Assembly (NCBI GenBank): GCA_008501735.1
Contig: QQUF01000018.1
Span: 1-17,015, forward strand
DNA from: Calditrichota bacterium
GTDB lineage: Bacteria; CLD3
DNA: 17,015 bases
Direction: 5' to 3'
In this document: positions 2-16,612 of the stretch, in pieces
How positions within the stretch are numbered: the first letter of the stretch is position 1
Layout: every line of letters begins with the position of its first letter
Made by a program: the position numbers and the translations under genes
The notes under the pieces: model-generated
The model's database searches: none
Seen by the model: the letters and a program-made list of their open reading frames with translations, nothing else
What the model was told of the DNA's origin: nothing

Positions 2-1732
2 TTTGAAGGTTTGGAAGTTTCTGATGCTCAAGTAGCTTTCCAACATCTTTTCAGTTACATAGCTTTTGTTGCGACGATTCCTGTTTTGCTTTTGCTTGGA
101 GGCGAACTTGTCAAAAGGTGGTTTTGGGAAATTCGAGAAACTAAAAACGTTATCTCGTTAGACGGAATTGCTTTTGTCGCAATTTCCGCTGCTTTCCTAA
201 AATCCGTTTACAATCTTTGGGTTGGAGAAGGTCACACTTACTTTGAAACTGTAACAATGACTTTGCTTTTCATAACCGGTGGAAGATTAATCATTGGTTC
301 GATTAAAGGGCAAATGAAACAGAGCCTTGCAACTCAAATCAAAGACATTGAAAAACAAAACTCAGCTTTGAAGGTCGGTGAAACTGTTGAACTAGTTTCA
401 GGAGACGAAGTTCCGGTTGACGGTGAACTTCTGACTCAAGGTTATTTTGACGAGGCTTCTTTGACAGGTGAAAGTCAAGTTGTTTTGCGTAAAATCGGTG
501 AAACGGTTTTGAGTGGAGCAGTTGTCGTTGATTCTCCGATTAAACTAAAAGTAACTCGTTCAGGCAACGAACACACTTTGGCAAAACTCGAAACAGCAGT
601 CAACAAAGCCTTAGTTGAAAAAGGTAAACTTCGTGCATTGATTGACAAAATTGCAAAAATTTTATTTTTTATTACGGTTGTAATTTCTGCTGGAGTTTTT
701 ACTTACTGGTACCAAACTGTAAGTCTTGAAGAAGCGATTTTGAATGCAATGGCAGTTCTTTTGGTTTCTTGTCCTTGTGCTTTGGGAATTGCCGTTCCAA
801 TTGTTAGTTACCAAACAATTTTAAAGGCTTTGGCGAGTAAAATTTTAATCCAAAATCCGCAAGTTTTGGAGACAATTCCTAAGGTTAAACATCTCTTTTT
901 TGATAAGACAGGAACTCTTACAAATAAAAATTTCTCAAAAATAAGAGTAGAACTGAGCGAAGAATTTGAAGACTTACTTTTCTCAATTGTGAGTAATTCA
1001 AAACACCCAATCTCGGTTAGAGTTGCAAAAGAATTAAAGAAAAGTAAGATTCTCGAACTTCAAAATTTAAAAGAAATTACAGGTTTTGGACTTCAAGCTG
1101 AATTTGAAGGCAAGGTTTACAAATTCGGTTCAAAAGATTTTTGTGGGATTGAAGAAACTGACTCGGAGTTTACGGAAGTTTACTTCACCGAAAACTCAAC
1201 ACTCGTCGGCAAAGTTTCACTTGAACCCGAACTTCGCGAAGGTGTGAAAGAAGTTCTTGCAGAAATTCCTGTTGCTGACAAAAGAATAATTTCCGGAGAC
1301 AGGAGAAAACCAACAGAGTTGATTGCAGAGTTTTTTGGCATAAAAGGTGTTGCTAATTTGAAGCCTGAGGAAAAACTGTCTCTAATCGAAGAAACGCAAA
1401 AAAGCGGAATTTTGATGATGGTTGGAGACGGGTTGAATGATGCTCCTTCTTTAGCAAAAGCTGACATTGGAGTTACTTTTTCATTCGGAACTGATTTGAG
1501 CAAAATCTCAAGTGATGTTGTGATTTTGAGTGAAAGTTTGAATCCGCTCAAAGAGCTTTTTGAGTTGGCGACTTTTTCAAGAAAAAAAATGTACCAGAAT
1601 GTTTTTTGGACACTTGCTTACAATTCTGTTGCAATGATTTTAGCTTGTTTTGGGCTTCTTCACCCGATTGTTGCGACTTTTGTAATGTTCACTTCAAGCA
1701 TTTTCGTAATTTGGAATAGTTACCGAAAATGA
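2..1732 (+). CDS. P1B-type Cu+-transporting ATPase (CcoI/FixI- or CopA-like), 5'-truncated by window edge
   Basis: Inner-membrane heavy-metal pump that moves Cu+ out of the cytoplasm, powered by ATP. The frame is open to the window's first bases (F-E-G precede the TTG at 11), so the N-terminus with any HMA metal-binding domain lies outside. Counting from TTG 11: actuator loop TGES 152-155, membrane metal site CPC 254-256, phosphorylation motif DKTGT 298-302 (Asp298), the P1B-specific HP dipeptide 332-333, and hinge GDGLND 472-477. The last helices carry a YN pair and an MFTSS motif, which match the Cu+ (P1B-1) pattern. The downstream genes, especially the SafE-like protein at 2985, favour a cbb3-oxidase-maturation (CcoI) role over plain copper detoxification; this is inference from context. 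The ATPase identity is certain, the subtype less so. Confidence 0.93.
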   Translation, partial: FEGLEVSDAQVAFQHLFSYIAFVATIPVLLLLGGELVKRWFWEIRETKNVISLDGIAFVAISAAFLKSVYNLWVGEGHTYFETVTMTLLFITGGRLIIGSIKGQMKQSLATQIKDIEKQNSALKVGETVELVSGDEVPVDGELLTQGYFDEASLTGESQVVLRKIGETVLSGAVVVDSPIKLKVTRSGNEHTLAKLETAVNKALVEKGKLRALIDKIAKILFFITVVISAGVFTYWYQTVSLEEAILNAMAVLLVSCPCALGIAVPIVSYQTILKALASKILIQNPQVLETIPKVKHLFFDKTGTLTNKNFSKIRVELSEEFEDLLFSIVSNSKHPISVRVAKELKKSKILELQNLKEITGFGLQAEFEGKVYKFGSKDFCGIEETDSEFTEVYFTENSTLVGKVSLEPELREGVKEVLAEIPVADKRIISGDRRKPTELIAEFFGIKGVANLKPEEKLSLIEETQKSGILMMVGDGLNDAPSLAKADIGVTFSFGTDLSKISSDVVILSESLNPLKELFELATFSRKKMYQNVFWTLAYNSVAMILACFGLLHPIVATFVMFTSSIFVIWNSYRK

Positions 1733-1774
1733 GAATGTTTTTGGTAATCAAAAATATTAAAGAAAAGAAAAATA

Positions 1775-2692
1775 ATGGCAAAAAATAGCGGTAAAGCTTT
1801 CGCATTTGGGATTCTTGCAGTCTCGATTTTAATTTTTATTTTTTATCCCGACCCGCTTTGGAATTCTGTTCATCAAAGTCTGCTGAGTAGGGTTTTGGTG
1901 AGTTATGCTTCGGTTCCGACTCTTGTCGCAATCTCACTTTTGGCAGTGAAAAAATTTACATTAAGGTCTTTGATTGTTGATTCTTTGATAATTTCGGCAA
2001 TGAAAATGGTTTTTACTGCGGCAATATTTTTCATTTACATTTCTCCAAACAAATCAGGAAAACCTCCTGAAATTACCGAAGAAAGTAAAACAGAGATTCA
2101 CGTCGAACACTACAAAAAAGACGAAGATTTTGAATCGGGGAGTTTGAAAGGAACTTTTGTTTTTGATTCTGCAAAATTCGATGGTATTCCGATTGTTGCA
2201 CTTTTCGACCTGAAAACAGGAAAGTCAAAAAGCAAAAAAACTCACGAAGCACAAATTACTGACTGTTGCATTCTGCCAGAAATTCTTCTCGCTCAAGCAG
2301 GAGACAAGTTGAACTTTGAAAACACCACAAATGAGCTAAAACCAATTTATGGTAAAGTTGAAAGTGGGAAAAATTATTTTCAAAAGGCAATTCCGGGTGG
2401 TTCGGTTGCAAAGGGAATTCGACTTAAGAAACCTGCTCATATAATTTTGGACAACAACGATATTGGAACAAAACTTAAAGAGCAAAACATTTTAGTTTTT
2501 TCAAATCCTTACTTTGCAGTTTTGGACTCAAGTAATTCATTCGAATTTTTAGATGTTCCAACGGGCAAAACGCAATTAGGAATTTGGTTTATTAAGGGAA
2601 AAAATTTCATAGATTTAGCAAATCCTGATTTTGTTTTTGAAACAGAAATTAAGTCAGGTTTGACAGTAGAAAAAGATTTCAAAATTAATTAA
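1775..2692 (+). CDS. Membrane-anchored protein with C-terminal cupredoxin/carboxypeptidase-regulatory-like beta domain
   Basis: 305 aa, not recognised as a named family. Three hydrophobic segments (about residues 11-25, 37-58 and 66-90) are followed by a charged linker (95-125) and a beta-rich domain to the C-terminus, which should be periplasmic. The domain resembles the plastocyanin-like/regulatory-like domains often found beside respiratory and copper genes. The stretch from residue 242 (FSNPYFAVLD) and the following 'DVPTGKTQLGIW' match the usual 'HPYFAV..D..G.F.I.DVP.GTY.L..WH' pattern, but the usual copper-binding His residues are missing. Two adjacent cysteines, Cys164-Cys165, sit where the family's single Cys normally lies. 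It starts at ATG 1775, 42 bases after the ATPase stop, with only a purine-rich leader (AAAGAAAAG) as RBS. It is probably co-transcribed with the ATPase; a copper-handling or oxidase-assembly role is inferred. Confidence 0.75.
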   Translation: MAKNSGKAFAFGILAVSILIFIFYPDPLWNSVHQSLLSRVLVSYASVPTLVAISLLAVKKFTLRSLIVDSLIISAMKMVFTAAIFFIYISPNKSGKPPEITEESKTEIHVEHYKKDEDFESGSLKGTFVFDSAKFDGIPIVALFDLKTGKSKSKKTHEAQITDCCILPEILLAQAGDKLNFENTTNELKPIYGKVESGKNYFQKAIPGGSVAKGIRLKKPAHIILDNNDIGTKLKEQNILVFSNPYFAVLDSSNSFEFLDVPTGKTQLGIWFIKGKNFIDLANPDFVFETEIKSGLTVEKDFKIN

Positions 2693-2707
2693 GTAAAGGC
2701 AAAAAAA

Positions 2708-2977
2708 ATGGGAGTGTTCGTAGAAAAATACGCCGACATAATTTACTCAACTCTTTCAATTTTTTCGGTAGGTTTGATGTTTTGGTTTATTGTTCAATCA
2801 ATCAGAGGTCGTAATGAAGGCAAAAGCGAAGAAGAAAGTTGGGAATTAACTTCTTACTTTGTTTATGGGGCAGGTTTGTTTTTTATGCTCATTTGTGCGT
2901 TCTTTTTTATTTGGGCAGATTCATTTGAACAAATACTTGACGTGCTTGTCCATAAGTATTTGAGATTAATTTCTTAG
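2708..2977 (+). CDS. Small two-helix membrane protein, function unknown
   Basis: 89 aa. Two clear transmembrane segments (about residues 13-31 and 50-69) are separated by a short charged loop rich in Glu and Lys; the C-terminal tail is amphipathic. It starts at ATG 2708, 15 bases after the preceding stop, with AAGG at 2695-2698. Its stop codon overlaps the ribosome binding site of the next gene. It occupies the place where cbb3-maturation operons often carry the small protein CcoS or CcoH, but it shows neither the single-helix CcoS pattern nor a FixH-like periplasmic domain, so neither name is given. A role as a small accessory subunit of copper delivery is inferred from position only. Confidence 0.75.
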   Translation: MGVFVEKYADIIYSTLSIFSVGLMFWFIVQSIRGRNEGKSEEESWELTSYFVYGAGLFFMLICAFFFIWADSFEQILDVLVHKYLRLIS

Positions 2978-2984
2978 GAAATTT

Positions 2985-3680
2985 TTGGAATTTGTTTCCA
3001 CATTTTTAATCGGGTTTCTGGGAAGTTTTCATTGCATTGGAATGTGCGGTCCGATTGTTCTTGCACTTCCTTCGAGTGATTCAAAAACTTCACTTATTGT
3101 TAGTCGCCTGATTTACAACTTTGGTAGAATCGTAACTTACGCTTTTCTAGGTGGAATTCTTGGAGTGCTTGGCGGAAAAATCATTCTTTCAGGTTACCAA
3201 GAAATTCTGTCCATTTTCCTTGGAGTTGTCTTAATTGCTTTTGCAGTTTTCCCTTACCTTTTGGACAAAGTTTTTTCAAAAGGAATCATTGAGCCTCTCA
3301 TTTCGCCACTCAAAAACTTCGTTTCTACATTTTTAGCTTCAAAGTCAAAAGTTGCATTTTTTCTAATTGGAATTTTGAACGGTTACTTGCCTTGTGGACT
3401 CGTTTACGCAGGACTTGTGAAGTCGGTTCATTCAGGAACTTTGGTTTACGGCTCGTTGCATATGCTTGCTTTTGGTTTGGGAACTTTGCCTTTGATGTTT
3501 GCTTGGGGAATTTTGAGCAATTTTCTGACGCTCAAAGCACGACGAATCGGAAATTATATCGCACAGTTTTGGCTCATTGTGCTTGGAGTGATTTTTATTC
3601 TTAGAGGTTTATCTCTTGGAATTCCTTACATCAGCCCAATTCTTGATTCCGTTCTCGGAGTCCCTCAGTGTTGTCATTAA
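2985..3680 (+). CDS. Sulfite exporter TauE/SafE-like (UreH/DsbD_2-type) membrane protein
   Basis: 231 aa, about six membrane helices. It belongs to the UreH-like/DsbD_2-type group, commonly annotated as 'sulfite exporter TauE/SafE' and often next to CcoI and CcoS. Diagnostic motifs: His16-Cys17 followed by M20-C21-G22-P23 in the first helix, and N132-G-x-L-P-C137-G in the middle. The tail ends Cys-Cys-His, another plausible thiophilic metal site. The start is the non-canonical TTG at 2985, chosen because AGGAA at 2976-2980, overlapping the previous stop, is correctly spaced from it and because the family's conserved N-terminus begins there. Translation is probably coupled to the gene at 2708. 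A role in copper or thiol handling for oxidase assembly is inferred; the transported substrate is unknown. Confidence 0.88.
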   Translation: MEFVSTFLIGFLGSFHCIGMCGPIVLALPSSDSKTSLIVSRLIYNFGRIVTYAFLGGILGVLGGKIILSGYQEILSIFLGVVLIAFAVFPYLLDKVFSKGIIEPLISPLKNFVSTFLASKSKVAFFLIGILNGYLPCGLVYAGLVKSVHSGTLVYGSLHMLAFGLGTLPLMFAWGILSNFLTLKARRIGNYIAQFWLIVLGVIFILRGLSLGIPYISPILDSVLGVPQCCH

Positions 3681-5246: not shown

Positions 5247-7157
5247 ATGGACAAAATTAAAATTTGTTTGGCAGTAGGAATACTTTGTGGAAGTTACAGT
5301 TTTTCGTTCGCTGGAGACGGACCAGGTGGAATTGGAACAACTGACGGAAGTTCAAGTTTGATTCTTTGGCTAAACCCAAGTGAAGGAACAACAGTTGACG
5401 GCTCGAATAACTTAACCGCTTGGACTGACCAAAGTGGAAACGGAAACAATGCTTCAACAACAGCAAGTTCAGAACCTTTGTTAGTAAGTAATGTGAGGAA
5501 TGGGTTTCCTGTTGTACGTTTTGATTCTGGAAACAGTGAATTTATGAATCTTGGAAATGCAACTTCAGGAGACTTGAACATTAATCCAAATTCAACGGAT
5601 TTGTCAATTATTGCAGTTACGGATAACAGCACGACAGGAACCGGAGTTTTGATGGGAAAAAGTGCTTCAAGTAGTTCAAGCACTCAATACGAATTTGCTT
5701 TTAGCGGAACAACTTCAATTTCTTTAAACGGAGGTGGAAACTCTAATTCGTTTACAGTTGGGACTTCAGGATTTCACATTTTCAGTTTTACAATTAAAGA
5801 CACAACTTTTAGTACAAGACCTTTGACATTAATTACTGACGGAACAGACACTTTTCCCGCAGTTGGAGTTTTAACTGGTTCTACAACGAATTCACACAAT
5901 GTAAATCTTGGAAGAAACACTCAAGGAGCGAATAATTTTTTTGACGGAGACCTTGCAGAATTAATAGTTTACAACTCTCTTAACACAGTTCAAGCACAAA
6001 TTGGAATCAATTACTTAAGTGCGAAATACGACATTTCGATTTCAGGATTTTACTCTGACAAATACGCTGGAGACACAAATGGAAACGGAGATTTTGATTT
6101 TGATGTTGCAGGAATCGGAAGAGATGTAAACGGAACTCACACAACTTCCGAGTCAGCAGGTTTGAAAGTTACAAATCAAGGTTTTCTTAGTGCCGATGAC
6201 ACTTACTTAATTTACGGACACAAAGAAACAAGCAACACTCAAACAACAAGTGGAGTTTCAGGAGGAGTTGAAGCGAGGTTTTTACGTTCTTGGCATTTTG
6301 ATTTGACAGGAACAGGCTCGGGAAATGTTGACATCGTTTTTGATTTTGCAAAAGCGGGAATCGCTGGAAGCCCAAGTGGAAGCAGTTACGTTTTGCTCAC
6401 TTCAAGTGATGACGGAGCGACTTTTACGGAAGTTGCAGGAGTTACCGACAATGTTTCGGGAACAGAAGTTCAGTTCAACGGAGTTGCAAGTACAAGTCTT
6501 GTTGATGGAAATGTTTACACTCTTGGAACGACAGATTTGACAGACAGTTCTTTACCTGTAACTTTGACCGAATTTTCAGCAAGTGAGCAAAATGGAAAAG
6601 TAGTTTTGAATTGGACAACAGCTTCTGAACTCAACAATCTTGGATTCATTCTTAACCGTTCAACTAACAGCAAAAATTTTATTGAAATTGCTTCACACAG
6701 GAATTTTCCTGAACTTAGAGGTTTTGGTTCAACTCCAAGTGAGAAGTTTTACACTTTTGTTGATGACTCGGAATTTTCTCAAGGAACAACTTACACTTAC
6801 AAAATCCAAAGCCAAGATTTTGACGGTGAAATTCACAACTACGATGAATTTGCAAGCATTACTTTCGACGGAAAGATCGAACTTACTTACAAGTTAGAGC
6901 AGAATTTCCCGAACCCTTTCAATCCAACAACTACGATTAATTACGAATTGGAAATTACGAATTACGAAAAAAGTAAATTGGTGATTTTTAATGTTTTGGG
7001 TGAAAAGATTAAAGAATTTGAACTCACTAAAAACAAAGGTTCTGTTGTTTGGGACGGGAAAAATACAGAAGGAAGTTTGGTCTCAAGTGGAACATATTTT
7101 TACAAAATCGAAGCAGAAAACTTTTCAGAAACTAAAAGAATGACTTTAGTTAAGTAA
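5247..7157 (+). CDS. Secreted LamG-like / FN3-like protein with type IX secretion C-terminal sorting domain
   Basis: 636 aa exported protein. A Sec signal peptide covers about residues 1-22 (KICLAVGILCGS..., cleavage near SFA-GDG). Residues ~37-265 form a LamG/concanavalin-A-like domain: 'LWLNPSEGT', 'LTAWTDQSGNGNNA', 'GDLAELIVYN', 'QIGINYLSAKY'. Residues ~270-440 resemble the beta domain that usually follows it in Bacteroidota (Asp/Gly-rich 'AGIGRDVNGTHTTSES'). Residues ~440-545 are FN3-like ('SLPVTLTEFSA', 'VVLNWTTASELNN'). From residue ~550 comes the FlgD-like T9SS sorting domain, with NFPNPFNPTTTINY starting at 553 and a final 'SGTYFYKIEAENFSETKRMTLVK'-type tail. The sorting domain directs passage through the type IX system to the cell surface or medium. 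The LamG fold suggests carbohydrate or adhesive binding; no catalytic domain was seen. It is monocistronic, with RBS AGGA at 5234-5237 and a strong terminator at its end. Confidence 0.88.
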   Translation: MDKIKICLAVGILCGSYSFSFAGDGPGGIGTTDGSSSLILWLNPSEGTTVDGSNNLTAWTDQSGNGNNASTTASSEPLLVSNVRNGFPVVRFDSGNSEFMNLGNATSGDLNINPNSTDLSIIAVTDNSTTGTGVLMGKSASSSSSTQYEFAFSGTTSISLNGGGNSNSFTVGTSGFHIFSFTIKDTTFSTRPLTLITDGTDTFPAVGVLTGSTTNSHNVNLGRNTQGANNFFDGDLAELIVYNSLNTVQAQIGINYLSAKYDISISGFYSDKYAGDTNGNGDFDFDVAGIGRDVNGTHTTSESAGLKVTNQGFLSADDTYLIYGHKETSNTQTTSGVSGGVEARFLRSWHFDLTGTGSGNVDIVFDFAKAGIAGSPSGSSYVLLTSSDDGATFTEVAGVTDNVSGTEVQFNGVASTSLVDGNVYTLGTTDLTDSSLPVTLTEFSASEQNGKVVLNWTTASELNNLGFILNRSTNSKNFIEIASHRNFPELRGFGSTPSEKFYTFVDDSEFSQGTTYTYKIQSQDFDGEIHNYDEFASITFDGKIELTYKLEQNFPNPFNPTTTINYELEITNYEKSKLVIFNVLGEKIKEFELTKNKGSVVWDGKNTEGSLVSSGTYFYKIEAENFSETKRMTLVK

Positions 7158-7325: not shown

Positions 7326-7733
7326 ATGATTCATTTAGTCAGAAAGGTTCAATTTTGTGCCGCTCACAGACTTCACACAGACAAACTTTCGATTGAAGAA
7401 AACAAACGAGTTTACGGAATTTGTAACAATGAAAATGGTCACGGACACAACTACGAACTCGAAGTTACAATTGCAGGCGAAGTTGACCCGATAACAGGAA
7501 TGGTAATGGATTTGAAAGAGCTTAAAGAGATAATTGAAAAAGAAATCGTAGATAAAGTTGACCACAAAAATCTAAACTTCGATGTCGATTTTTTAGAAGG
7601 TCTTGTTCCGACAGCAGAAGTTGTGACGATGAAATTTTGGGAAATTTTAGAAGACAAAATTCCACACGGAAAGCTTTACAGAATTAGGCTTTGGGAATCA
7701 AGTAACAACGTTGTCGAATTCTACGGAAATTAA
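7326..7733 (+). CDS. 6-pyruvoyltetrahydropterin synthase (PTPS/QueD family)
   Basis: 135 aa, usual family length. PTPS converts dihydroneopterin triphosphate, the FolE product, to 6-pyruvoyl-tetrahydropterin. QueD relatives instead make 6-carboxytetrahydropterin for queuosine. Zn ligands are His14 (AAHRL) and His39/His41 (HGH). The catalytic Cys33 is spaced C-x5-HGH (ICNNENGHGH), as in biopterin-type PTPS, not the C-x3-HGH of typical QueD. The catalytic pair Asp79-His80 (DHKNLN) and substrate-binding Glu124 (LWESSNN) are present. ATG 7326 is preceded by AAAGG at 7314-7318. The gene opens a three-gene operon with folE (21-base gap) and a short-chain reductase. The context and the C-x5 spacing argue for tetrahydrobiopterin rather than queuosine; no other queuosine gene is in view. 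Automated pipelines may label it queD. Confidence 0.92.
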   Translation: MIHLVRKVQFCAAHRLHTDKLSIEENKRVYGICNNENGHGHNYELEVTIAGEVDPITGMVMDLKELKEIIEKEIVDKVDHKNLNFDVDFLEGLVPTAEVVTMKFWEILEDKIPHGKLYRIRLWESSNNVVEFYGN

Positions 7734-7754
7734 ACTCAAACCGAAAGAAAACAG

Positions 7755-8297
7755 ATGCAAGAATTAGTAAGAAAAATGCTTTCCGAAGTTGGTGAGAACC
7801 CTGATAGAGAAGGACTTTTGGACACTCCGAAACGAGTTGACAAGAGTCTAAGATTTCTGACAGAAGGCTACGAAATGGACCCGAAAGCGATTATTGAAAA
7901 AGCTCTTTTTGATGCTGAAGAAAGTGAAATGGTAATTGTAAAAGACATCGAACTTTACTCACTTTGCGAACATCATATGCTTCCGTTTTTTGGAAAGTGC
8001 CATATTGCTTACATTCCAAATGGAAAAATTGTCGGACTTTCAAAATTGCCACGAGTAGTTGATATTTTTAGTAGAAGATTGCAAGTTCAAGAAAGGCTGA
8101 CCTCGCAGATTGCAAATGCGATTAATGAATATTTGAATCCGCTTGGAGTTGGAGTAATTGTTGAAGCTGCTCATTTTTGTATGATGATGCGAGGAGTTCA
8201 AAAGCAAAACAGCCAAACAATCACTTCTTGTATGCTCGGCGAATTTCGTGACTCTTCCAAAACACGCAACGAATTTCTAAAATTAATCGGAAAATAA
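7755..8297 (+). CDS. folE: GTP cyclohydrolase I
   Basis: 180 aa, slightly short but complete. It catalyses GTP to 7,8-dihydroneopterin triphosphate and formate, the first step of folate and biopterin synthesis. Visible motifs: '[16 protein letters not shown]' (residues 13-28); the Zn site Cys71-E-H-His74 in 'LCEHHMLPF' with the third ligand Cys142 in '[11 protein letters not shown]'; the binding loop '[12 protein letters not shown]' (94-105) with '[10 protein letters not shown]'; and 'QNSQTITS' near the end. This is the classical zinc type IA enzyme, not the IB (FolE2) form. ATG 7755 lies 21 bases after the PTPS stop with only a weak purine-rich RBS (GAAAGAAAACAG), so it probably depends on the upstream gene. 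The next gene starts one base after its stop, consistent with translational coupling. Confidence 0.96.
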
Positions 8298-8298
8298 A

Positions 8299-8988
8299 AT
8301 GGCTCTTGTTGTAATTACAGGTGGAACTTCGGGAATTGGACTTGGACTCGCTGAAAGATTTGCCGACAAAAATTTTGAAGTAATTGTTACAGGGCGTAAC
8401 GAAGATAAATTTCTTAAAAACCGAGTCAATCCAAAGATTCGGTTTTTAAAATGCGATGTAACGAATGAAAAGGAAGTCAACTTTTTTGCAAATTCTGTTT
8501 CGCTGGACTACAAAGGCGTAGAAATTCTCATTAACAACGCAGGTTTGGGAGTTGTTAAACCGATTTCGGAAACGACTTTGGAAGAATGGAATTTGACTTT
8601 GCAAACAAATCTGACAGGCACTTTCTTGACAACAAAAGCGTTTTTGCCCTTGCTTGAAAATTCCGAAAACTCTCACATTTTTAATATTAATTCGGTTGCT
8701 GGAAAAGTTGCTTTTCCAAGTTGGGCTTCTTACTGTGCTTCAAAATTCGGTTTGACAGGTTTTACAAACGCACTTCGTGAAGAACTTCGACCTAAAAAAA
8801 TTCGTGTAACAAGCGTTTTCCCTGGAGCGATTAACACTGACTTTTGGAATTCAGTAGAAGGCGATTTCCCAAGAGAAAAAATGATGACTCCCGAAGATGT
8901 TTTCGGAGCAATCTATTCCGCTTACACAACTCACCCAAGAGCTTTGGTTGAAGAAATTTCAATCGGACTCGCAGGTGGGGTTTTGTAG
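8299..8988 (+). CDS. Short-chain dehydrogenase/reductase, probable sepiapterin (6-pyruvoyl-tetrahydropterin) reductase
   Basis: 229 aa classical SDR. Rossmann cofactor motif TGGTSGIG (residues 7-14), 'CDVT' (52-55), NNAG (79-82), and a complete catalytic set: Asn104, Ser132 ('NSVAG'), Tyr145 and Lys149 (Y-C-A-S-K). Arg33, shortly after the second beta strand ('VTGRN'), fits NADPH preference. Substrate specificity of SDRs cannot be read from motifs. It starts 1 base after folE and two genes after PTPS, the exact partners of sepiapterin reductase, which reduces 6-pyruvoyl-tetrahydropterin to tetrahydrobiopterin with NADPH. That function is therefore inferred from context. It could also be a generic ketoreductase. 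A GGA in the folE end (8289-8291) is the only RBS. Confidence 0.85.
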   Translation: MALVVITGGTSGIGLGLAERFADKNFEVIVTGRNEDKFLKNRVNPKIRFLKCDVTNEKEVNFFANSVSLDYKGVEILINNAGLGVVKPISETTLEEWNLTLQTNLTGTFLTTKAFLPLLENSENSHIFNINSVAGKVAFPSWASYCASKFGLTGFTNALREELRPKKIRVTSVFPGAINTDFWNSVEGDFPREKMMTPEDVFGAIYSAYTTHPRALVEEISIGLAGGVL

Positions 8989-10209: not shown

Positions 10210-10833
10210 ATGAAAAAATTTCTTCATTTCGGACTCATTACACTTTTAATTTTATGCTCATCTTTTTCTGTTTTTGCAGAGGAAATGGCGAAACCTGAAA
10301 TTGGCAAACAAGCTCCAAATTTTGAACTTATGGGAGCAGATGGAAAAGCCTACAATTTAGCAGACTTTAAAGGCAAATTTGTAGTTCTTGAATGGATTAA
10401 TTTCGATTGCCCTTTTGTAAAAAAACAATACCAAAAGTCAGGTAAAATGCCTTCTTTACAACAACAGTTTACAGAAAAAGGTGTTGTTTGGCTTTCGATT
10501 TGTTCTTCTGCCGAAGATAAACAAGGAAATTTTTCAAGAGATGTTTTAGAGGCAAGAATGAAAGCTGAAAAACATTCTGCAACGGCTTATCTTTTGGACG
10601 CAGATGGAAAAGTTGGAAAAATGTATGATGCTAAAACTACTCCTCATATGTTCGTAATTAACCCAAAAGGCGAATTGGCTTATATGGGAGCAATTGACAG
10701 TATTCGTTCTACAGACCCAGAAGACATTCCTAAAGCAAAAAATTATGTTTCTGATGCTCTCAATGCTTTGTTGAGTGGAAAAGAAGTTGAGAAAAAAGTT
10801 TCAAAACCTTACGGTTGTTCTGTGAAGTATTAG
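10210..10833 (+). CDS. Exported redoxin / peroxiredoxin-like thioredoxin-fold protein (single active-site Cys)
   Basis: 207 aa. Signal peptide 1-23 with Ala-type cleavage (VFA-EEM), so periplasmic. AhpC/TSA-like thioredoxin fold: 'GKQAPNFELMGADGKAYNLADFKGK' region, active site 'NFDCPFVKK' with Cys67, and cis-proline in 'KTTPHMFVI' (Pro145). The second Cys of a CxxC is replaced by Val70. A C-terminal Cys203 in 'PYGCSVKY' is conserved in this family and could resolve an oxidised Cys67. Cys98 ('SICSS') is a further candidate. The gene has strong SD signals (AGGAAAGGAA at 10195-10204) and its own terminator, so it is probably monocistronic. A thiol-peroxidase or disulfide role is inferred. It is convergent with the ArsR gene. 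Confidence 0.9.
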   Translation: MKKFLHFGLITLLILCSSFSVFAEEMAKPEIGKQAPNFELMGADGKAYNLADFKGKFVVLEWINFDCPFVKKQYQKSGKMPSLQQQFTEKGVVWLSICSSAEDKQGNFSRDVLEARMKAEKHSATAYLLDADGKVGKMYDAKTTPHMFVINPKGELAYMGAIDSIRSTDPEDIPKAKNYVSDALNALLSGKEVEKKVSKPYGCSVKY

Positions 10834-10856: not shown

Positions 10857-10892
10857 AGAGCATTGTTTTAGAAATCAAACAATGCTCTTTTT
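10857..10892 (+). terminator. Terminator of the redoxin gene, overlapping the 3' end of the ArsR gene
   Basis: AGAGCATTGTTT (10857-10868), 8-base loop, AAACAATGCTCT (10877-10888): a perfect 12-bp stem followed by TTTT on the + strand. The minus-strand side lacks a T-run, so it ends the redoxin transcript in one direction. The right arm encodes the last ArsR codons and the left arm reaches its stop codon. Confidence 0.85.
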
Positions 10893-11191
10893 GTTTCGAT
10901 TGAGGCTTGCGTGGTTGAACAAACAATTTCGCACATTTGAAAAATTGCAGGATTTGCGATTCTGTAAAAAACCATATTTTTTTCTTTACGGCGTGTTACA
11001 AAGTCCGCTTCAAAAAGCATTTTCAAATTTTTAGAGACATTCGCTTGTTGAAGCTCTGTCAATTCTATTATTTGAGAGACGCTTTTTTCCCCTTCTTGAA
11101 GACTAATCAAAATTTTTAACCTTGTCGGCTCTGCTAAGAGTTTGAACTTTTTGCTAACAAGTTCGATGAGTTGCTCATTTTGTAATTGCAT
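10868..11191 (-). CDS. ArsR/SmtB-family transcriptional regulator with C-x3-C pair
   Basis: 107 aa winged-helix repressor. N-terminal helix, then 'FKLLAEPTRLKILISL' (residues 16-31), 'VSQIIELTELQQANVSKNLKMLFEADFV' recognition helix-turn-helix (38-65), and wing 'RRKEKNMVFYRI' (67-78). The only two cysteines, Cys87 and Cys91, lie one helical turn apart in the C-terminal dimerisation helix. This is a possible site for a thiophilic metal, persulfide or disulfide. The DLCVCDL-type arsenic motif of the recognition helix and the helix-2 Cys of SqrR/BigR sensors are both absent. Excellent RBS (AGGAG, complement of 11199-11203). It diverges from the MMPL operon across 137 bases that contain dyads and a promoter, so it probably represses that operon and itself. 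Inducer unknown. Confidence 0.9.
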   Translation of the reverse strand: MQLQNEQLIELVSKKFKLLAEPTRLKILISLQEGEKSVSQIIELTELQQANVSKNLKMLFEADFVTRRKEKNMVFYRIANPAIFQMCEIVCSTTQASIETKRALFDF

Positions 11192-11207
11192 TTAATTACT
11201 CCTACGT

Positions 11208-11221
11208 GTAATCTGTATTAC
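11208..11221. promoter_or_regulatory. Small inverted repeat next to the ArsR start
   Basis: GTAAT-CTGT-ATTAC, a perfect 5-bp dyad 17 bases upstream of the ArsR start codon. It could be an autoregulatory site but is short enough to be chance in AT-rich DNA. Confidence 0.25.
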
Positions 11222-11245
11222 TAATTTGTTATGTGATAATTTAGT
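11220..11245. promoter_or_regulatory. Candidate ArsR operator (imperfect 26-bp inverted repeat)
   Basis: Arms ACTAATTT (11220-11227) and AATTTAGT (11238-11245) pair at 7 of 8 positions around a 10-base centre. The size and position between arsR and the MMPL promoter's -35 box fit an ArsR-family operator. Binding is inferred. Confidence 0.4.
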
Positions 11246-11255
11246 ATCTTTTCTG

Positions 11256-11284
11256 TTGACAAGTCAAGAGTTAATTTTTAAATT
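11256..11284 (+). promoter_or_regulatory. Candidate promoter of the MMPL operon
   Basis: Perfect -35 TTGACA (11256-11261), 17-base spacer, -10-like TAAATT (11279-11284, four of six consensus bases). Transcription would start near 11291, about 38 bases before ATG 11329. Confidence 0.55.
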
Positions 11285-11300
11285 TGGATTAAATTCCAAA
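11283..11300. promoter_or_regulatory. Inverted repeat over the predicted MMPL transcription start
   Basis: TTTGGA-TTAAAT-TCCAAA, a perfect 6-6-6 dyad. It overlaps the -10 box and predicted start of the MMPL promoter, where a bound repressor would block RNA polymerase. Confidence 0.45.
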
Positions 11301-11328
11301 ATAACTATTTCGTGATATAGGAAATAAA

Positions 11329-13659
11329 ATGAAAAAACAAATCATAAACTTCTCGATAAATTCTCCAAAAACAGTAATTGTCTTGTCTATTTTGCTTTTT
11401 CTCGCAGCATTGGCTCAATTCCCAAAAGTGAAAATTGATACGAACCCAGAGCATATGCTCAGTCAAAACGAAGAAGTAATTCTCCATCACCACGAACTTA
11501 AAGAGAAGTTCAAACTCGAAGATATTCTTGTTGTTGGGATTCACAAAGAAAGTGGCGTTTTTAATCCTAAAACTTTAGAAGCGGTTGCTTTAATCACAGA
11601 AGAAGCTCTTGAAATGGAAGGAGTAATTGCTAATGACGTTGTTGCTTTGACAGAAGTTGATGACATTGTTTCCGATGGTGGAACGATTAAGGTTGAAACC
11701 TTGATGGAAGAAATTCCAGAGACTGACGAAGAAGGGCGGCAAATTCTTGAAAGAATAAAACTAAATCCGCTTTTTAACGGGAAGCTTGCTTCCGACGACG
11801 GAACTTTAGTTACAATTTTTGTTCCTATTGAGTCAAAAGAAATCAGTGCAGAGTTAGCCGAGAAATTGAAAGTATCCTCAGAAACTCATCTTAAAAACGG
11901 CGAAGATTTTCTTGTTGCGGGTTTACCAGTTGCAGAATCGACTTTTGGTGCAGAAATGTTCAAACAAATGGCAGTTTACGCACCGCTTGCAGGACTCGTG
12001 ATTTTCCTTTTGCTTTTATTCTTTTTCCGTTCGGCAAAAGTTATCGCTGCTCCGATGATAATTGCTGTAATGACAGTTGTTTACACAATGGGAGCTTTGA
12101 TTGGACTTGGTTTTACGGTTCACATTATGAGCTCAATGATTCCGATATTTTTGATGCCGATTGCAGTTTTGGATTCCACTCACATTGTCAGCGAATTTTA
12201 TGACACTTACCAAAAAACGAAAGACAGCAAAAAGACTCTACGAGAAGTTTTAAATACGCTTTTTATGCCGATGCTTTTCACTTCTCTTACAACAATTGTT
12301 GGCTTTGCTTCACTTGCTTTTACTCCAATTCCTCCTGTAGAAGTTTTTGGTTCTTTCGTTGCTCTTGGGGTTTTTCTCGCTTGGCTTTTAACAATGACTT
12401 TTTTACCTGCTTTTATCTCTTTAATGCCTGCAAAAGCACTTGAAAACTTTGGAACAGCAGAAGAAGGCAAAGAAACTTTACTTGATAAATTCCTCGCTTT
12501 CACTTTCAGAGTCTCAAAAACTAATGGAAAATTAATTCTTGCCGTTGTAACAATTCTTTTTGTGATTTCTGGTTACGGAGTAACAAAAATTATTGTTAAC
12601 GACAATCCTGTGAATTGGTTCAAACCTGACCACGAACTTCGCAAAGCTGATGTTTTGATGAATTCAAAGATTGGCGGAACTTATATGTCTCACTTGGTTT
12701 TTACAGGTGAAGAAGACGTGATGAAATCGCCTGAAGTCGTAAATTACATTCGAGACTTACAAGACAAAATGGACGCAGACGAACGAGTTGGAGCAACAAC
12801 TTCAGTAATTGACATTTTAGAAAAAATCAATCTTGAGCTTCTCGGGAAAATTGATATTCCGCAAACTTTGGAAGGAATTGCACAGTATTTATTTCTTTTT
12901 GAAATTTCAGGTGGCGACCCGGAAGATTTATTCAAATTTGTAACTCCTGAGTACTCGGACGTTCACATTTGGATTCAAATGCCAAAAGGTGACAACAAAA
13001 TTATGCACGATTTTGCACTTGAGTATGAAAATTATTTGGCAGAAAATCCACCTCCCGAAAATATCCAAACTTATTGGGCTGGTTTGAATTACGTGAATGT
13101 TGTTTGGCAAGACAAAATGGTTGGTGGAATGGGAAAATCACTAATTGGAAGTTTTGTAATGGTTTTGGTGATGATGACTTTGCTTTTCCGTTCATTCAAA
13201 TGGGGAATAATTTCGATGGTTCCGCTAAGTGTTACAATTGTTGGAATTTATGGACTTATTGGCTTTTCAGGGAAGTTTTACGATATGCCAATTGCTGTTC
13301 TTTCGTCTTTGACACTTGGGCTTTCAATTGACTTTGCGATTCACTTTATCAAAAGAGCAAGAGATATTCACGCAGAAACAAACGATTTTGCTAAAACAAT
13401 CGACTTACTTTTTGAAAGCACAGGAAGAGCAATTTCCCGAAATGTAATGATTATTGCAATTGGTTTTTTACCGCTGTTCTTTGCCACTTTGGTTCCTTAC
13501 AAAACGGTTGGTACTTTCTTCTTTTTGATAATGATGATGAGCGGATTTGCTACACTTTTCATTTTGCCCTCGATTTCAAATGTTTTTAGTAAATCGCTTT
13601 TTAAAACTCAAGACAAACCACAAATTAAAAATTTAGAACACTCTTTGGAGGTAAATTAA
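11329..13659 (+). CDS. MMPL / RND-superfamily exporter
   Basis: 776 aa, the size of MMPL-type RND permeases that export lipids, hopanoids or other hydrophobic molecules using the proton gradient. The two-fold repeat is clear: helix 1 (~14-31), a periplasmic domain, five helices (~214-370), helix 7 (~400-420), a second periplasmic domain, and five more helices (~603-752). Each half carries the conserved intramembrane acid: Asp282 in 'PIAVLDSTHIVSEFYDTY' and Asp668 in 'LTLGLSIDFAIHFIKRARD'. RBS AGGAAA (11319-11324) precedes ATG 11329. It is the first gene of a likely operon with DUF2892, LolA-like, OsmC and outer-membrane barrel genes, and diverges from an ArsR repressor. The cargo is unknown; the LolA-like partner favours a lipid or lipoprotein-like substrate. 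Confidence 0.93.
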   Translation: MKKQIINFSINSPKTVIVLSILLFLAALAQFPKVKIDTNPEHMLSQNEEVILHHHELKEKFKLEDILVVGIHKESGVFNPKTLEAVALITEEALEMEGVIANDVVALTEVDDIVSDGGTIKVETLMEEIPETDEEGRQILERIKLNPLFNGKLASDDGTLVTIFVPIESKEISAELAEKLKVSSETHLKNGEDFLVAGLPVAESTFGAEMFKQMAVYAPLAGLVIFLLLLFFFRSAKVIAAPMIIAVMTVVYTMGALIGLGFTVHIMSSMIPIFLMPIAVLDSTHIVSEFYDTYQKTKDSKKTLREVLNTLFMPMLFTSLTTIVGFASLAFTPIPPVEVFGSFVALGVFLAWLLTMTFLPAFISLMPAKALENFGTAEEGKETLLDKFLAFTFRVSKTNGKLILAVVTILFVISGYGVTKIIVNDNPVNWFKPDHELRKADVLMNSKIGGTYMSHLVFTGEEDVMKSPEVVNYIRDLQDKMDADERVGATTSVIDILEKINLELLGKIDIPQTLEGIAQYLFLFEISGGDPEDLFKFVTPEYSDVHIWIQMPKGDNKIMHDFALEYENYLAENPPPENIQTYWAGLNYVNVVWQDKMVGGMGKSLIGSFVMVLVMMTLLFRSFKWGIISMVPLSVTIVGIYGLIGFSGKFYDMPIAVLSSLTLGLSIDFAIHFIKRARDIHAETNDFAKTIDLLFESTGRAISRNVMIIAIGFLPLFFATLVPYKTVGTFFFLIMMMSGFATLFILPSISNVFSKSLFKTQDKPQIKNLEHSLEVN

Positions 13660-13660
13660 A

Positions 13661-13867
13661 ATGACACTCGAAAATACAATCCGAGCAATTGCAGGAACTT
13701 TTATCTTGATTTCTCTTTCTTTAGGTTACTTTGTAAGCTCTTACTGGTTTTTGTTCACAGCATTTGTCGGAGTAAATTTAATTCAGTCTTCTTTTACAAA
13801 ATGGTGCTTGATGGAAGACATTTTAAAAGCAACAGTCTTTAAAAATAAGATTGGAAGTTGTTCTTAG
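13661..13867 (+). CDS. DUF2892 (YgaP-like) small inner-membrane protein
   Basis: 68 aa with two hydrophobic helices (about residues 8-23 and 27-43). The pattern 'TIRAIAGTFILISLSLGYFVSSYWFLFTAFVGVNLIQSSFT' over residues 6-46 is the DUF2892 signature. In other genomes it is found alone, or fused to rhodanese in YgaP, and frequently among sulfur/persulfide genes. The conserved Cys after the second helix is Cys49 (KWCLMED); Cys67 lies at the tail. It starts 1 base after the MMPL stop, and its GGAGG RBS (13647-13651) is inside the MMPL gene, so the two are co-translated. The molecular role of DUF2892 is not established. Its tight coupling suggests an accessory subunit of the exporter or a sulfur-linked function; both are inference. 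Confidence 0.85.
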   Translation: MTLENTIRAIAGTFILISLSLGYFVSSYWFLFTAFVGVNLIQSSFTKWCLMEDILKATVFKNKIGSCS

Positions 13868-13941
13868 TTTTAAAAATCATTGGATTATAAAATGAGAAAG
13901 TTTTTTCTATCGAATTGCTTAGAGCCATCCGATATATGATT

Positions 13942-13951
13942 TCACGAAATA
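13942..13951. repeat. Copy of a 10-bp motif shared with the MMPL leader (11306-11315)
   Basis: TCACGAAATA here is the exact reverse complement of 11306-11315. With five flanking bases on each side, 15 of 20 positions match. Both copies lie within 30 bases upstream of a start codon in the same locus, so it may be a shared regulatory site. Confidence 0.35.
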
Positions 13952-13971
13952 ATTTTTTTAAAGGATAAAAA

Positions 13972-14766
13972 ATGAACACAATAAAATTTTTCTCAAAAAT
14001 ATTTTTTCTCAACTTAATAATTTTTACAACTGCTTTTGCACAAAATGCAGAAGAAATTATGATGAAAAGCCACCTGAACTACTACTACGCTGAAAATGAC
14101 GGAAAAGCAAAAGTTAAAATGGTGCTCACGAATAAAAGAGGCAAAGAACGAGTTCGTGAATTTGTAATGTTAAGGCTTGACAAAGAAGAAGGCGGAAAGC
14201 AGTTTTACTACACTTACTTTGAACAGCCAAGCGACGTGAAACGCACAACCTTTATGGTTTGGAAAAACGTTGGTGAAGACGACAGTCGTTGGATTTACGT
14301 TCCTGCAATTGATTTGGTAAAAGAAATTGCAGCTGCTGACAAAGGGTCAAGTTTTGTTGGTTCGGATTTTTCTTACGAAGATGTTTCAGGAAGGCATTGG
14401 ACTTCTGACATTCACGAAGTTTTAAGAGAAGAATCGGTTGAAGGAAAAGATGCTTTTGTTGTGAAGTCAGTAGCAAAAGAAGGCAAACCTGCTTTTGCTT
14501 ACACAATTACTTGGGTTGACAAAGTGGATTTACTTCCACTAAAAATTGAATTTTATGACAAAAAGGACAAGCTCGAAAAGGTCTTCCGCGCAGTAAAAAT
14601 TGAGGAAATTAACGGTGTAAAAACTGTAACTCACAGACAAATGGAAGACGTGAAGAAAAAACATACAACAGACATTTTCTTTGAAAGCATTGATTACAAC
14701 GTCGGTTTGACAGAAGATATTTTTACAGAACGTTACTTGCGAAAAGCACCAAAAGTAGTCAAGTAA
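13972..14766 (+). CDS. Outer-membrane-lipoprotein-sorting-like (LolA-like) periplasmic protein
   Basis: 264 aa. Signal peptide 1-23 (TAFA-QNA). The body matches the LolA-like family commonly paired with MMPL exporters: 'GKAKVKMVLTNKRGKERVREF', 'DVKRTTFMVWKN', and the diagnostic stretch 'DDSRWIYVPAIDLVKEIAA' to 'GSDFSYEDVSGR' (about residues 103-142). Further on come 'YTITWVDKVDLLPLKIEFYD' and 'VTHRQMEDVKKKHTT'. The fold is a half-barrel with a hydrophobic groove, so it probably carries a lipid-like cargo across the periplasm. It lies between the MMPL pump and the outer-membrane barrel, as expected for a carrier. RBS AAAGGA at 13960-13965. The 104-base gap upstream of it may hold a second promoter. 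Confidence 0.9.
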   Translation: MNTIKFFSKIFFLNLIIFTTAFAQNAEEIMMKSHLNYYYAENDGKAKVKMVLTNKRGKERVREFVMLRLDKEEGGKQFYYTYFEQPSDVKRTTFMVWKNVGEDDSRWIYVPAIDLVKEIAAADKGSSFVGSDFSYEDVSGRHWTSDIHEVLREESVEGKDAFVVKSVAKEGKPAFAYTITWVDKVDLLPLKIEFYDKKDKLEKVFRAVKIEEINGVKTVTHRQMEDVKKKHTTDIFFESIDYNVGLTEDIFTERYLRKAPKVVK

Positions 14767-14863
14767 TTTAAAATTCGTTGTTTTGAGTCAAAAGGCAGAA
14801 ACTGCATTTTCTGGTACAGATTTTGGCACTAATACTTTCATGCAACAATTTACTCTTAAAAAT

Positions 14864-14869
14864 GAGAGG
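14864..14869 (+). promoter_or_regulatory. Ribosome binding site that fixes the OsmC start
   Basis: GAGAGG six bases before ATG 14876. The reading frame stays open upstream to a TTG at 14783, but that start has no Shine-Dalgarno and would add 31 residues not typical of OsmC. Confidence 0.7.
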
Positions 14870-14875
14870 TTTACA

Positions 14876-15316
14876 ATGTCAACTCAACATATTTACGCAA
14901 CTCACGTGCAATGGAAATCTGAAAAAATAGGAAATCTTACTTCCGATGGATTTTCGGAAATTGAAGTCGCGACACCAGTTGATTTTGGAGGACACGAAGG
15001 AATTTGGAGCCCTGAGCATCTTTTTGTGGCTTCTGCGAACGTTTGTTTTATGACTACTTTTCTGGCTTTAGCTCCAAAGTTTGGACTCAAGTTTCATTCC
15101 TTCGATTCTGATGCAATTGGTAAGGTTGAGAAAGTAGAAGGTAAAGGTTTTGAAGTAACTGAAATTATGCTCAAACCAAAAGTTGTAATTGAAGATTCCA
15201 AAGACGAAGCTAAGGCACTTAAAGTTTTAGCAAAATCTGAAAAATATTGCCTTATTTCCAACTCAATGAAGTCTGAAATTTTAATGGAGCCAGAAGTAAT
15301 CGTTCCATTTTTTTAG
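14876..15316 (+). CDS. OsmC/Ohr family thiol (peroxidase-type) protein
   Basis: 146 aa, the usual OsmC length, cytoplasmic. The two family cysteines are present: Cys57 in 'ASANVCFMTTFLALA' and Cys125 in 'SEKYCLISNS'; 'GIWSPEHLFVAS' with Glu47 forms the rest of the active site. In Ohr and OsmC these residues reduce organic (lipid) hydroperoxides using lipoyl or other thiols. This variant belongs to the general OsmC group rather than clear Ohr. ATG 14876 was chosen over TTG 14783 because of RBS GAGAGG and family length. It sits between the LolA-like gene (109-base gap) and the outer-membrane barrel (84-base gap), an unusual place for it. A link to peroxidised lipid or persulfide cargo is speculative. 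Confidence 0.9.
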   Translation: MSTQHIYATHVQWKSEKIGNLTSDGFSEIEVATPVDFGGHEGIWSPEHLFVASANVCFMTTFLALAPKFGLKFHSFDSDAIGKVEKVEGKGFEVTEIMLKPKVVIEDSKDEAKALKVLAKSEKYCLISNSMKSEILMEPEVIVPFF

Positions 15317-15334
15317 AATAGAAAATTCTAAAAA
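15310..15334. terminator. Weak AT-rich hairpin after OsmC
   Basis: TTTTTAGAA (15310-15318), 7-base loop, TTCTAAAAA (15326-15334): a perfect 9-bp stem overlapping the OsmC stop. It is mostly A-T pairs and has no T-run on the + strand, so it is at best a weak attenuator or mRNA-end hairpin. Confidence 0.3.
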
Positions 15335-15400
15335 TTAGTCTTTAAAAGTTGCTTTCCTTGAAAAATACCCTATTTATTTTAATTAAGAGAACTACATAAA

Positions 15401-16612
15401 ATGACTCGTAAATTCTTAATTTTACTACTTTTAATTTTTGCTTCTAACAGCTTACTTTTTGCGGAAGGTTTGAACGGTTTTGTCGAAAGTAATTTTTCAC
15501 CGAGAGTTTCAGAAAACCCTTTTTTCAAAAACGATGATTACGTTTCGGCGGAGTCACGACTTCAACTTTCTTACCAACATTTTGGCGAAATCGGTGAAAC
15601 ATTTTTCAAAATGGATTTCATAAATGACCAAGTTAAAGACACAACAATAATTGAACTTCGAGAGGCGAACATAAAATTTTCACCTTTTGAATTTATGGAC
15701 GTGAAAGCTGGAAGACAAATTCTGACTTGGGGAGTTGGAGACTTAGTTTTTGTGAATGACATTTTTCCAAAGGATTGGAATTCCTTCTTCTCTGGAAGAG
15801 GTGTTGAGTACTTAAAAGCTCCAAACGATGCGGTAAAGTTTTCATTTTTTAACAACTTTGCAAATCTTGACTTTGTTTTCATTCCAACTTTTGAGGCAGA
15901 CCGTTTACCCGAAACCGAAAGATTTTCTTATTGGAACGGACAAAGTCTTTCAAATTCTTCTTTAACTATTAAGAAACCTGAAAAGACTTTTGGCAACCAA
16001 GAATATTCCTTTAGGCTAAGCAAAAGGCTTTTTAACTACAAAACTTCACTTTACTACTACAGAGGGTTTTGGAAAACTCCAAAAGGACAAACCGCAACTT
16101 TTACAGGTTTTTACCCTGAACTTGATGTTTACGGAGCAAGTTTTAGAGGGCAACTTTTGGGTGGTATTTTTGCAGGAGAATTTGGTTACTACAATTCACG
16201 AGAAGACAAAAACGGCGACAATGCTTTCGTAGAAAACTCATCTTACCGTTACCTTGTTAACTTTGAGAAAGAAATTGTCGCTGACTTAACAGGAAATATT
16301 CAGTACTACTCAGAAATTATCAAAAATTTTGACGAAAACACACAAGCTAAAGGAAGAGAAGAATTTCGATATTTGGTAACAACAAGACTTACAAAAAGAC
16401 TTTTTTACGAAACTTTGACTCTTTCGTTTTTTGCATTTTACAGTCCATCGGAAAAAGATTTTTACTTGAGACCTGAAGCAACTTACGGGTTTTCTGACAA
16501 TTTGAAGCTTTCTGTTTTAGGAAGTATTTTTGGAGGTAAAGAATCCTTCACAATGTTTGGACAAAACGAAGACAACTCGAACGTGAGCTTGCGTTTAAGA
16601 TATTCTTTTTAA
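15401..16612 (+). CDS. Outer-membrane beta-barrel protein of the MMPL locus (DUF1302-like)
   Basis: 403 aa. Signal peptide 1-21 (LLFA-EGL). Alternating hydrophobic/polar strands rich in Tyr, Phe and Gly throughout, with a C-terminal Phe ('VSLRLRYSF'), are the marks of an outer-membrane barrel inserted by BAM. The segment 'FMDVKAGRQILTWGVGDLVFVNDIFPKDW' over residues ~98-126 has the 'GRQ.I.WG.GD....D' motif of porin-like DUF1302-type proteins that accompany MMPL and LolA-like genes. In this locus it would be the outer-membrane end of the export or import route. ATG 15401 has a modest RBS (AAGAGA at 15385-15390), and the 84-base leader could carry its own promoter. The exact family is uncertain; the barrel is not. 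Its stop overlaps the convergent gene's stop. Confidence 0.82.
   Translation: MTRKFLILLLLIFASNSLLFAEGLNGFVESNFSPRVSENPFFKNDDYVSAESRLQLSYQHFGEIGETFFKMDFINDQVKDTTIIELREANIKFSPFEFMDVKAGRQILTWGVGDLVFVNDIFPKDWNSFFSGRGVEYLKAPNDAVKFSFFNNFANLDFVFIPTFEADRLPETERFSYWNGQSLSNSSLTIKKPEKTFGNQEYSFRLSKRLFNYKTSLYYYRGFWKTPKGQTATFTGFYPELDVYGASFRGQLLGGIFAGEFGYYNSREDKNGDNAFVENSSYRYLVNFEKEIVADLTGNIQYYSEIIKNFDENTQAKGREEFRYLVTTRLTKRLFYETLTLSFFAFYSPSEKDFYLRPEATYGFSDNLKLSVLGSIFGGKESFTMFGQNEDNSNVSLRLRYSF

Follow-up and report, generated by a model that had tools for sequence, protein, structure and literature searches.

A putative envelope conduit of RND pump, LolA-like carrier, and outer-membrane barrel in a Calditrichota bacterium belongs to a family linked to sulfur genes

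What is encoded by a compact gene cluster near the end of a short contig from a Calditrichota bacterium? The stretch of DNA analyzed here (contig QQUF01000018.1, 17,015 nucleotides; hereafter "the window") carries a divergent ArsR-family repressor gene followed by genes for an MMPL-type RND pump, a DUF2892 membrane protein, a LolA-like carrier, an OsmC-like protein, and an outer-membrane β-barrel, in that order. A preliminary description had placed six genes in this locus, and both the open reading frame (ORF) list and profile searches find all six there (Table 1). The DUF2892 start codon lies one base past the stop codon of the pump gene. The long ORF of the OsmC gene opens at a TTG, but the internal ATG, which is preceded by GAGAGG, is the likelier start.

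Table 1. Features of the pump locus in the window
Feature	Position	Strand	Evidence and residues
ArsR-family repressor	10868-11191	- (divergent)	PF01022, E 8e-12; Cys at 87 and 91
Divergent control region	11192-11328		Between the arsR and MMPL genes; consensus matches only
MMPL/HAE3-type RND pump	11329-13659	+	PF03176, E 3e-32; D282, D668, H672
DUF2892/YgaP-like transmembrane protein	13661-13867	+	Pfam YgaP-like_TM PF11127, E 1e-10; C49
Periplasmic LolA-like carrier	13972-14766	+	LolA_like PF17131, E 7e-55
OsmC-like protein, two Cys	14876-15316 (long ORF from TTG 14783)	+	PF02566, E 4e-16
Outer-membrane β-barrel	15401-16612	+	Weak DUF1302 PF06980, E 1e-6

How much of this arrangement is conserved? 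We compared 126 loci—the window and 125 others picked solely by similarity of the MMPL pump, of which 25 were named loci and 100 came from whole genomes of four phylum-level groups, labeled after the named loci that served as their centers. Their genes were called by longest ORF, such that small genes may be missed or mislabeled, and neighbor families were obtained by unsupervised clustering. The pump is accompanied by a LolA-like gene in 115 loci and by a barrel gene in 116, a trio found together in many bacterial phyla, in line with the trans-envelope system proposed in the preliminary description. After this trio, the commonest neighbors are ArsR (77 loci), DUF2892 (56), sulfide:quinone oxidoreductase (SQR; 46), DsrE (one cluster in 43 loci and a second in 20), DsrH (29), and ECF sigma factors (27); a further cluster, labeled MTase284 (29 loci), mixes different methyltransferases and was given no weight. 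At least one of SQR, DsrE, DsrH, or rhodanese is found nearby in 66 of the 126 loci, rising to 105 when DUF2892 is included.

Could these genes simply be chance neighbors of a generic trio? Counts in near and far stretches (about 1130 kb vs. 584 kb) say otherwise for most of them. DUF2892 (56 near/0 far), DsrE (95/0), DsrH (29/0), and rhodanese (15/0) occur only near the trio, while SQR (54/3) and ArsR (81/5) are each enriched about eightfold, and the near copies of all six families lie almost exclusively on the strand of the pump. Such crowding around the trio, with few or no copies at a distance, means that ArsR and DUF2892 are not random neighbors, and the idea that ArsR, DUF2892, and OsmC ended up here by accident—already contradicted for the first two—is extremely improbable as a whole. 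It does hold for OsmC, which stands beside the trio in only 2 of 126 loci (the window and L023). The six-gene clustering proposed for the window is thus beyond chance for five of its members, and OsmC, previously taken as a defining part, is excluded from the core and is probably a lineage-specific insertion. Just upstream of arsR, and parted from it by a strong terminator-like stem (10857-10888), lies a gene for an exported TlpA/AhpC-like redoxin (10210-10833). At the profile threshold it is seen in the window only, although a different redoxin occurs near the trio in L021, and it is probably a chance neighbor too.

The recurrent sulfur genes, for sulfide oxidation and sulfur transfer, are genuine. 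The SQR of locus L017 matches the Aquifex SQR structure at E 1e-105 and the Acidithiobacillus enzyme at about 1e-95, the two redox cysteines are retained in 46/46 and 47/50 sequences, and neighboring genes of 116 and 91 aa are DsrE and DsrH, respectively. SQRs of the Omnitrophota and Zixibacteria groups carry a different KCPxAP motif, which implies recruitment of no fewer than two types of SQR. Gene order differs by group. Nitrospirota loci read ArsR-DsrE-DsrE-DsrH-SQR-MMPL-LolA-barrel; six of them (L051, L055, L063-L065, and L070) carry an insert between MMPL and LolA composed of a 130-aa gene, usually a rhodanese-labeled gene, and a conserved gene of ~463 aa. Desulfobacterota-like loci have ArsR with SQR and/or a methyltransferase ahead of MMPL-LolA-barrel, and Omnitrophota loci follow either ArsR-MMPL-LolA-barrel-DUF2892 or ArsR-SQR-MMPL-x-x-LolA-barrel. 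Zixibacteria loci begin with an ECF sigma factor and an anti-sigma factor (bearing HxxxCxxC in 22/24) before MMPL-LolA-barrel-DUF2892, and two loci of the Zixibacteria clade, to which the pump of the window belongs, read rhodanese-DsrE-SQR-MMPL-LolA-barrel-DUF2892. Together, these patterns make the sulfur link of the pump family well supported. They also support the link to sulfur or persulfide chemistry that had been suggested for the window, but not the lipid-peroxide stress suggested alongside it, whose sole evidence was OsmC.

How are the pump and the sulfur genes distributed across whole genomes? Pumps were found in 47/245 genomes of the Nitrospirota group and 72/132 of the Zixibacteria group (both at E 1e-100) and in 55/345 of the Desulfobacterota-like group and 37/193 of the Omnitrophota group (both at E 1e-110). 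SQR (E 1e-25) is present in only 2 of the 193 Omnitrophota genomes, and both genes lie ~230 bp upstream of a pump gene on the same strand, an adjacency that would be difficult to account for if the two were not functionally coupled. Co-occurrence in whole genomes of the Zixibacteria group, where the cassette is found in 8/10 SQR genomes vs. 72/132 overall, was not persuasive; linkage is the informative signal. In the phylum of the window, the pump appears in one of nine genomes, the window's own (E 1e-80), and this patchiness suggests that the organism acquired it horizontally. On a pump tree (FastTree, local support values only), the window and a Latescibacterota locus form a pair (support 97) within the Zixibacteria-group clade (99). 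SQR requires at least 16 changes on this tree, indicating repeated association or loss. Outside these groups, plasmid pILYOP01 of Ilyobacter polytropus, a cultured member of the Fusobacteriota, carries LolA-barrel-MMPL with a 46% identical pump (L155, 2179-10577) downstream of an FAD oxidoreductase, selD, yedF, and a DUF3343 gene. The cysteines of the oxidoreductase rule it out as an SQR. The context hints at sulfur/selenium chemistry, though linkage in a single genome proves nothing; the carrier does offer a cultivable test organism.

The trio is not confined to sulfur contexts. In a sister clade of 18 loci, whose pumps run to about 900 residues, the trio mostly stands without sulfur genes: a single locus has SQR and rhodanese, and two have DUF2892. 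This implies that only part of the family is tied to sulfur, the trio as such being general. Might the cassette then be a general exporter of lipids or other hydrophobes, carrying ordinary envelope cargo such as a fatty acid or an isoprenoid or hopanoid-like lipid, with sulfide or thiol stress as one inducer and the sulfur genes as co-regulated passengers? The sister clade fits this account, as do the absence of SQR from most carriers in two phyla, the weak profile similarity of the pump to the hopanoid transporter HpnN and the sterol transporter BstA (82 of 752 and 23 of 1400 bits, against NCBIfam cut-offs), and the export of monoterpenes by AmeABCD (PMC6394551). However, SQR, DsrE, DsrH, rhodanese, and DUF2892 turn up beside the pump again and again, across several phyla and with SQRs of different types, and we regard a general exporter with sulfur passengers as somewhat unlikely.

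Do the proteins themselves look capable of moving hydrophobic cargo? The pump matches the MMPL domain PF03176 at 112.4 bits (gathering cut-off 20.5), and its top NCBIfam match is the HAE3 model TIGR00921 at 184 bits, below the curated cut-off of 351.9; judged by its sequence, it is HAE3-like rather than a strict TIGR00921 member. Proton-relay residues are in place (D282 in transmembrane helix 4 and D668 in helix 10). D668 and H672 are kept in 121/121 relatives, which is what a functional RND pump driven by protons should show; the D282 position is D in 95 and N in 23. The carrier model (pLDDT 86) shows a LolA-type fold with a hydrophobic cleft; its best structural match is Porphyromonas gingivalis LolA3 (9tp6, TM score 0.82), and it also matches the solved family relatives 3bk5 and 4z48, whereas classical LolA reaches only about 0.4. 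LolA3, in which a hydrophobic groove is present, shows only weak interaction with LolB (PMC13103446), as would suit a carrier that acts apart from the lipoprotein pathway. The barrel model (pLDDT 77) is porin-like, with 18 strands and a TM score of about 0.5. The single cysteine of DUF2892 (C49 in the window) is invariant in 56/56 homologs. Depletion of cysteine in the conduit proteins was considered as a sign of sulfur cargo and discarded, since proteins of the control clade are similarly cysteine-poor.

What might the ArsR protein sense? The preliminary description had noted a cysteine pair, and C87 and C91 are indeed present, but they do not form the known persulfide-sensor motif. Alignment places I29 at the α2 cysteine position of BigR, thus ruling out the α2/α5 dithiol of BigR and SqrR, and the protein scores 47.9 bits against the BigR equivalog model (cut-off 155). 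C87 is shared by 26 of 68 aligned ArsRs and C91 is private to the window. Relatives fall into classes with C16+C87 (25 loci) or C37/C75/C103/C104 (about 20 loci), and in locus L025, a single frame encodes an ArsR domain and, after it, a rhodanese domain. At shdr sulfur-oxidation loci, too, ArsR-type regulators lacking the canonical pair have been reported (PMC12423496). An alternative is a metal or metalloid stress system, with ArsR as a sensor of arsenic or a thiophilic metal and the conduit as the exit route for a metal-thiol or organometal species. The ArsR family itself is compatible with it, the window protein passes the NF033788 metalloregulator cut-off (NCBIfam), and the four-cysteine class resembles the cysteine sets of metal sensors. 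Yet the recurrent neighbors in the 126 loci include sulfur enzymes and no metal resistance family, and we consider a metal system improbable.

The control region between arsR and the pump gene holds a promoter-like TTGACA-17-TAAATT (11256-11284, plus strand) and two dyads that are candidate operators (ATTAC-N8-GTAAT, 11195-11212; TACTAATTT/AATTTAGTA, 11219-11246), each identified by consensus match alone. Across the set, arsR upstream regions contain more even-spacer dyads than shuffled sequences that preserve base composition only, with no single motif established. The SqrR-type operator ATTC-N8-GAAT occurs in just 1 of 68 arsR upstream regions.

How do these observations fit together? Tentatively, and with confidence a little short of even, we interpret the locus as a member of a sulfur-associated subfamily of the HAE3-RND/LolA-like/DUF1302-barrel trio, forming a conduit for hydrophobic sulfur-related cargo. 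The MMPL pump, driven by the proton gradient, would extract such cargo from the inner membrane for passage through the periplasm in the cleft of the LolA-like protein, and the barrel would release it across the outer membrane; the order of transfer and the direction of export are modeled on AmeABCD. Judging from its conserved neighbors, the trio would serve sulfide or sulfane-sulfur handling. DUF2892, with its invariant cysteine, may be a membrane accessory that binds or relays sulfane sulfur, and induction would come from thiol-bearing regulators—ArsR in the window and, in its nearest relatives, an ECF sigma factor with a Cys/His zinc anti-sigma factor.

Several observations weigh against this interpretation. 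SQR was not detected in the genome of the window, in 35 of the 37 Omnitrophota pump carriers, or in most carriers of the Zixibacteria group, meaning that the product of SQR cannot be the sole cargo. In addition, OsmC is the only sulfur enzyme of the window cassette, the cysteine pair of BigR and SqrR is missing from its ArsR, and the sister clade mostly lacks sulfur genes beside the trio. The most economical reading is a proton-driven conduit for hydrophobes that has been repeatedly recruited to sulfide or sulfane-sulfur handling.

The conserved neighbors suggest that the cargo may itself be a sulfur species. The likeliest candidates would be hydrophobic sulfur species, for example S8 or polysulfane, and sulfur-modified lipids, and the main alternative to elemental sulfur is a lipid, whether sulfur-modified or ordinary. 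S8 is both hydrophobic and a product of sulfide oxidation, which makes it the most interesting candidate. The strictest version of this idea, that the cassette is a dedicated exporter of zero-valent sulfur (S8/polysulfane) through both membranes, we consider rather unlikely. If true, however, it would link the oxidation of sulfide at the cell membrane to the sulfur found outside the cell, a step so far missing. It is not known how Chlorobaculum tepidum forms its extracellular S0 globules; PMC12285230 states that there must be a route across the outer membrane and proposes vesicles. An SQR gene beside a complete inner-to-outer-membrane hydrophobe conduit represents a deletable genetic candidate for sulfur export. 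More generally, the locus offers a functional handle on the poorly understood MMPL/HAE3, PF17131, DUF1302, and DUF2892 families.

The rest of the window has other content. Positions 11-3680 encode a P-type ATPase, two small membrane proteins, and a DsbD_2/cytochrome c biogenesis protein, resembling a cytochrome oxidase assembly cluster. A large secreted protein (5247-7157) carries a type IX secretion C-terminal sorting domain, which makes a type IX secretion system likely in this organism. Translations of a gene row at 7326-8988 (6-pyruvoyl-tetrahydropterin-synthase-like, GTP cyclohydrolase I-like, and short-chain dehydrogenase) resemble a tetrahydrobiopterin-type pathway. At the contig end (16890-17015), a glutamate dehydrogenase fragment (PF00208, 45% GC) abuts a truncated minus-strand gene of 33% GC, a chimeric-looking junction that is probably an assembly artifact.

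How does the locus relate to known systems? No description of an SQR/MMPL/LolA system was found in the open-access literature, but several systems share parts of it. HpnN and BstA are RND pumps for hydrophobic lipids by their NCBIfam names, but, as given above, the window pump scores far under their curated cut-offs. In P. gingivalis, the PG1175-1181 operon combines an MMPL pump with a LolA_like protein (PMC10434189, PMC10470040), and the closest structure to the window carrier comes from the same species (LolA3, PGN0947; PMC13103446). When iron or heme is limiting, this operon and related ones in Porphyromonas and Prevotella rank with the most strongly induced genes (PMC10434189, PMC10470040), raising the alternative of a transporter for a lipid-like siderophore, a porphyrin, or another iron-related compound. 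However, PG1175-1181 is TetR-controlled and includes ABC transporter genes, no sulfur genes are described there, and the recurrent families of the 126 loci include no iron genes; we judge an iron-related role highly improbable.

AmeABCD of Castellaniella defragrans, which protects against hydrophobic compounds and exports Nile Red, encodes an HAE3 RND pump, a LolA-superfamily protein (DUF1329), and a DUF1302 outer-membrane protein in one operon (PMC6394551), and the window contains all three parts of that cassette. It differs in its fourth protein, AmeC (COG4447), which is absent from the window and has no counterpart among the recurrent neighbor families of the 126 loci, and in its setting, a monoterpene degradation island where DUF2892, ArsR, SQR, and Dsr genes are not described. 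For the regulatory side, the nearest parallels are the BigR, SqrR, and YgaV operons (PMC5823870, PMC9774250). Their repressors have the α2/α5 cysteine pair that the window ArsR lacks, and an RND pump, LolA-like carrier, or barrel is not described there, but like the loci studied here they place an ArsR-family repressor over sulfur genes, and Escherichia coli ygaV-ygaP pairs the repressor with YgaP, a protein with a membrane part of the DUF2892 family.

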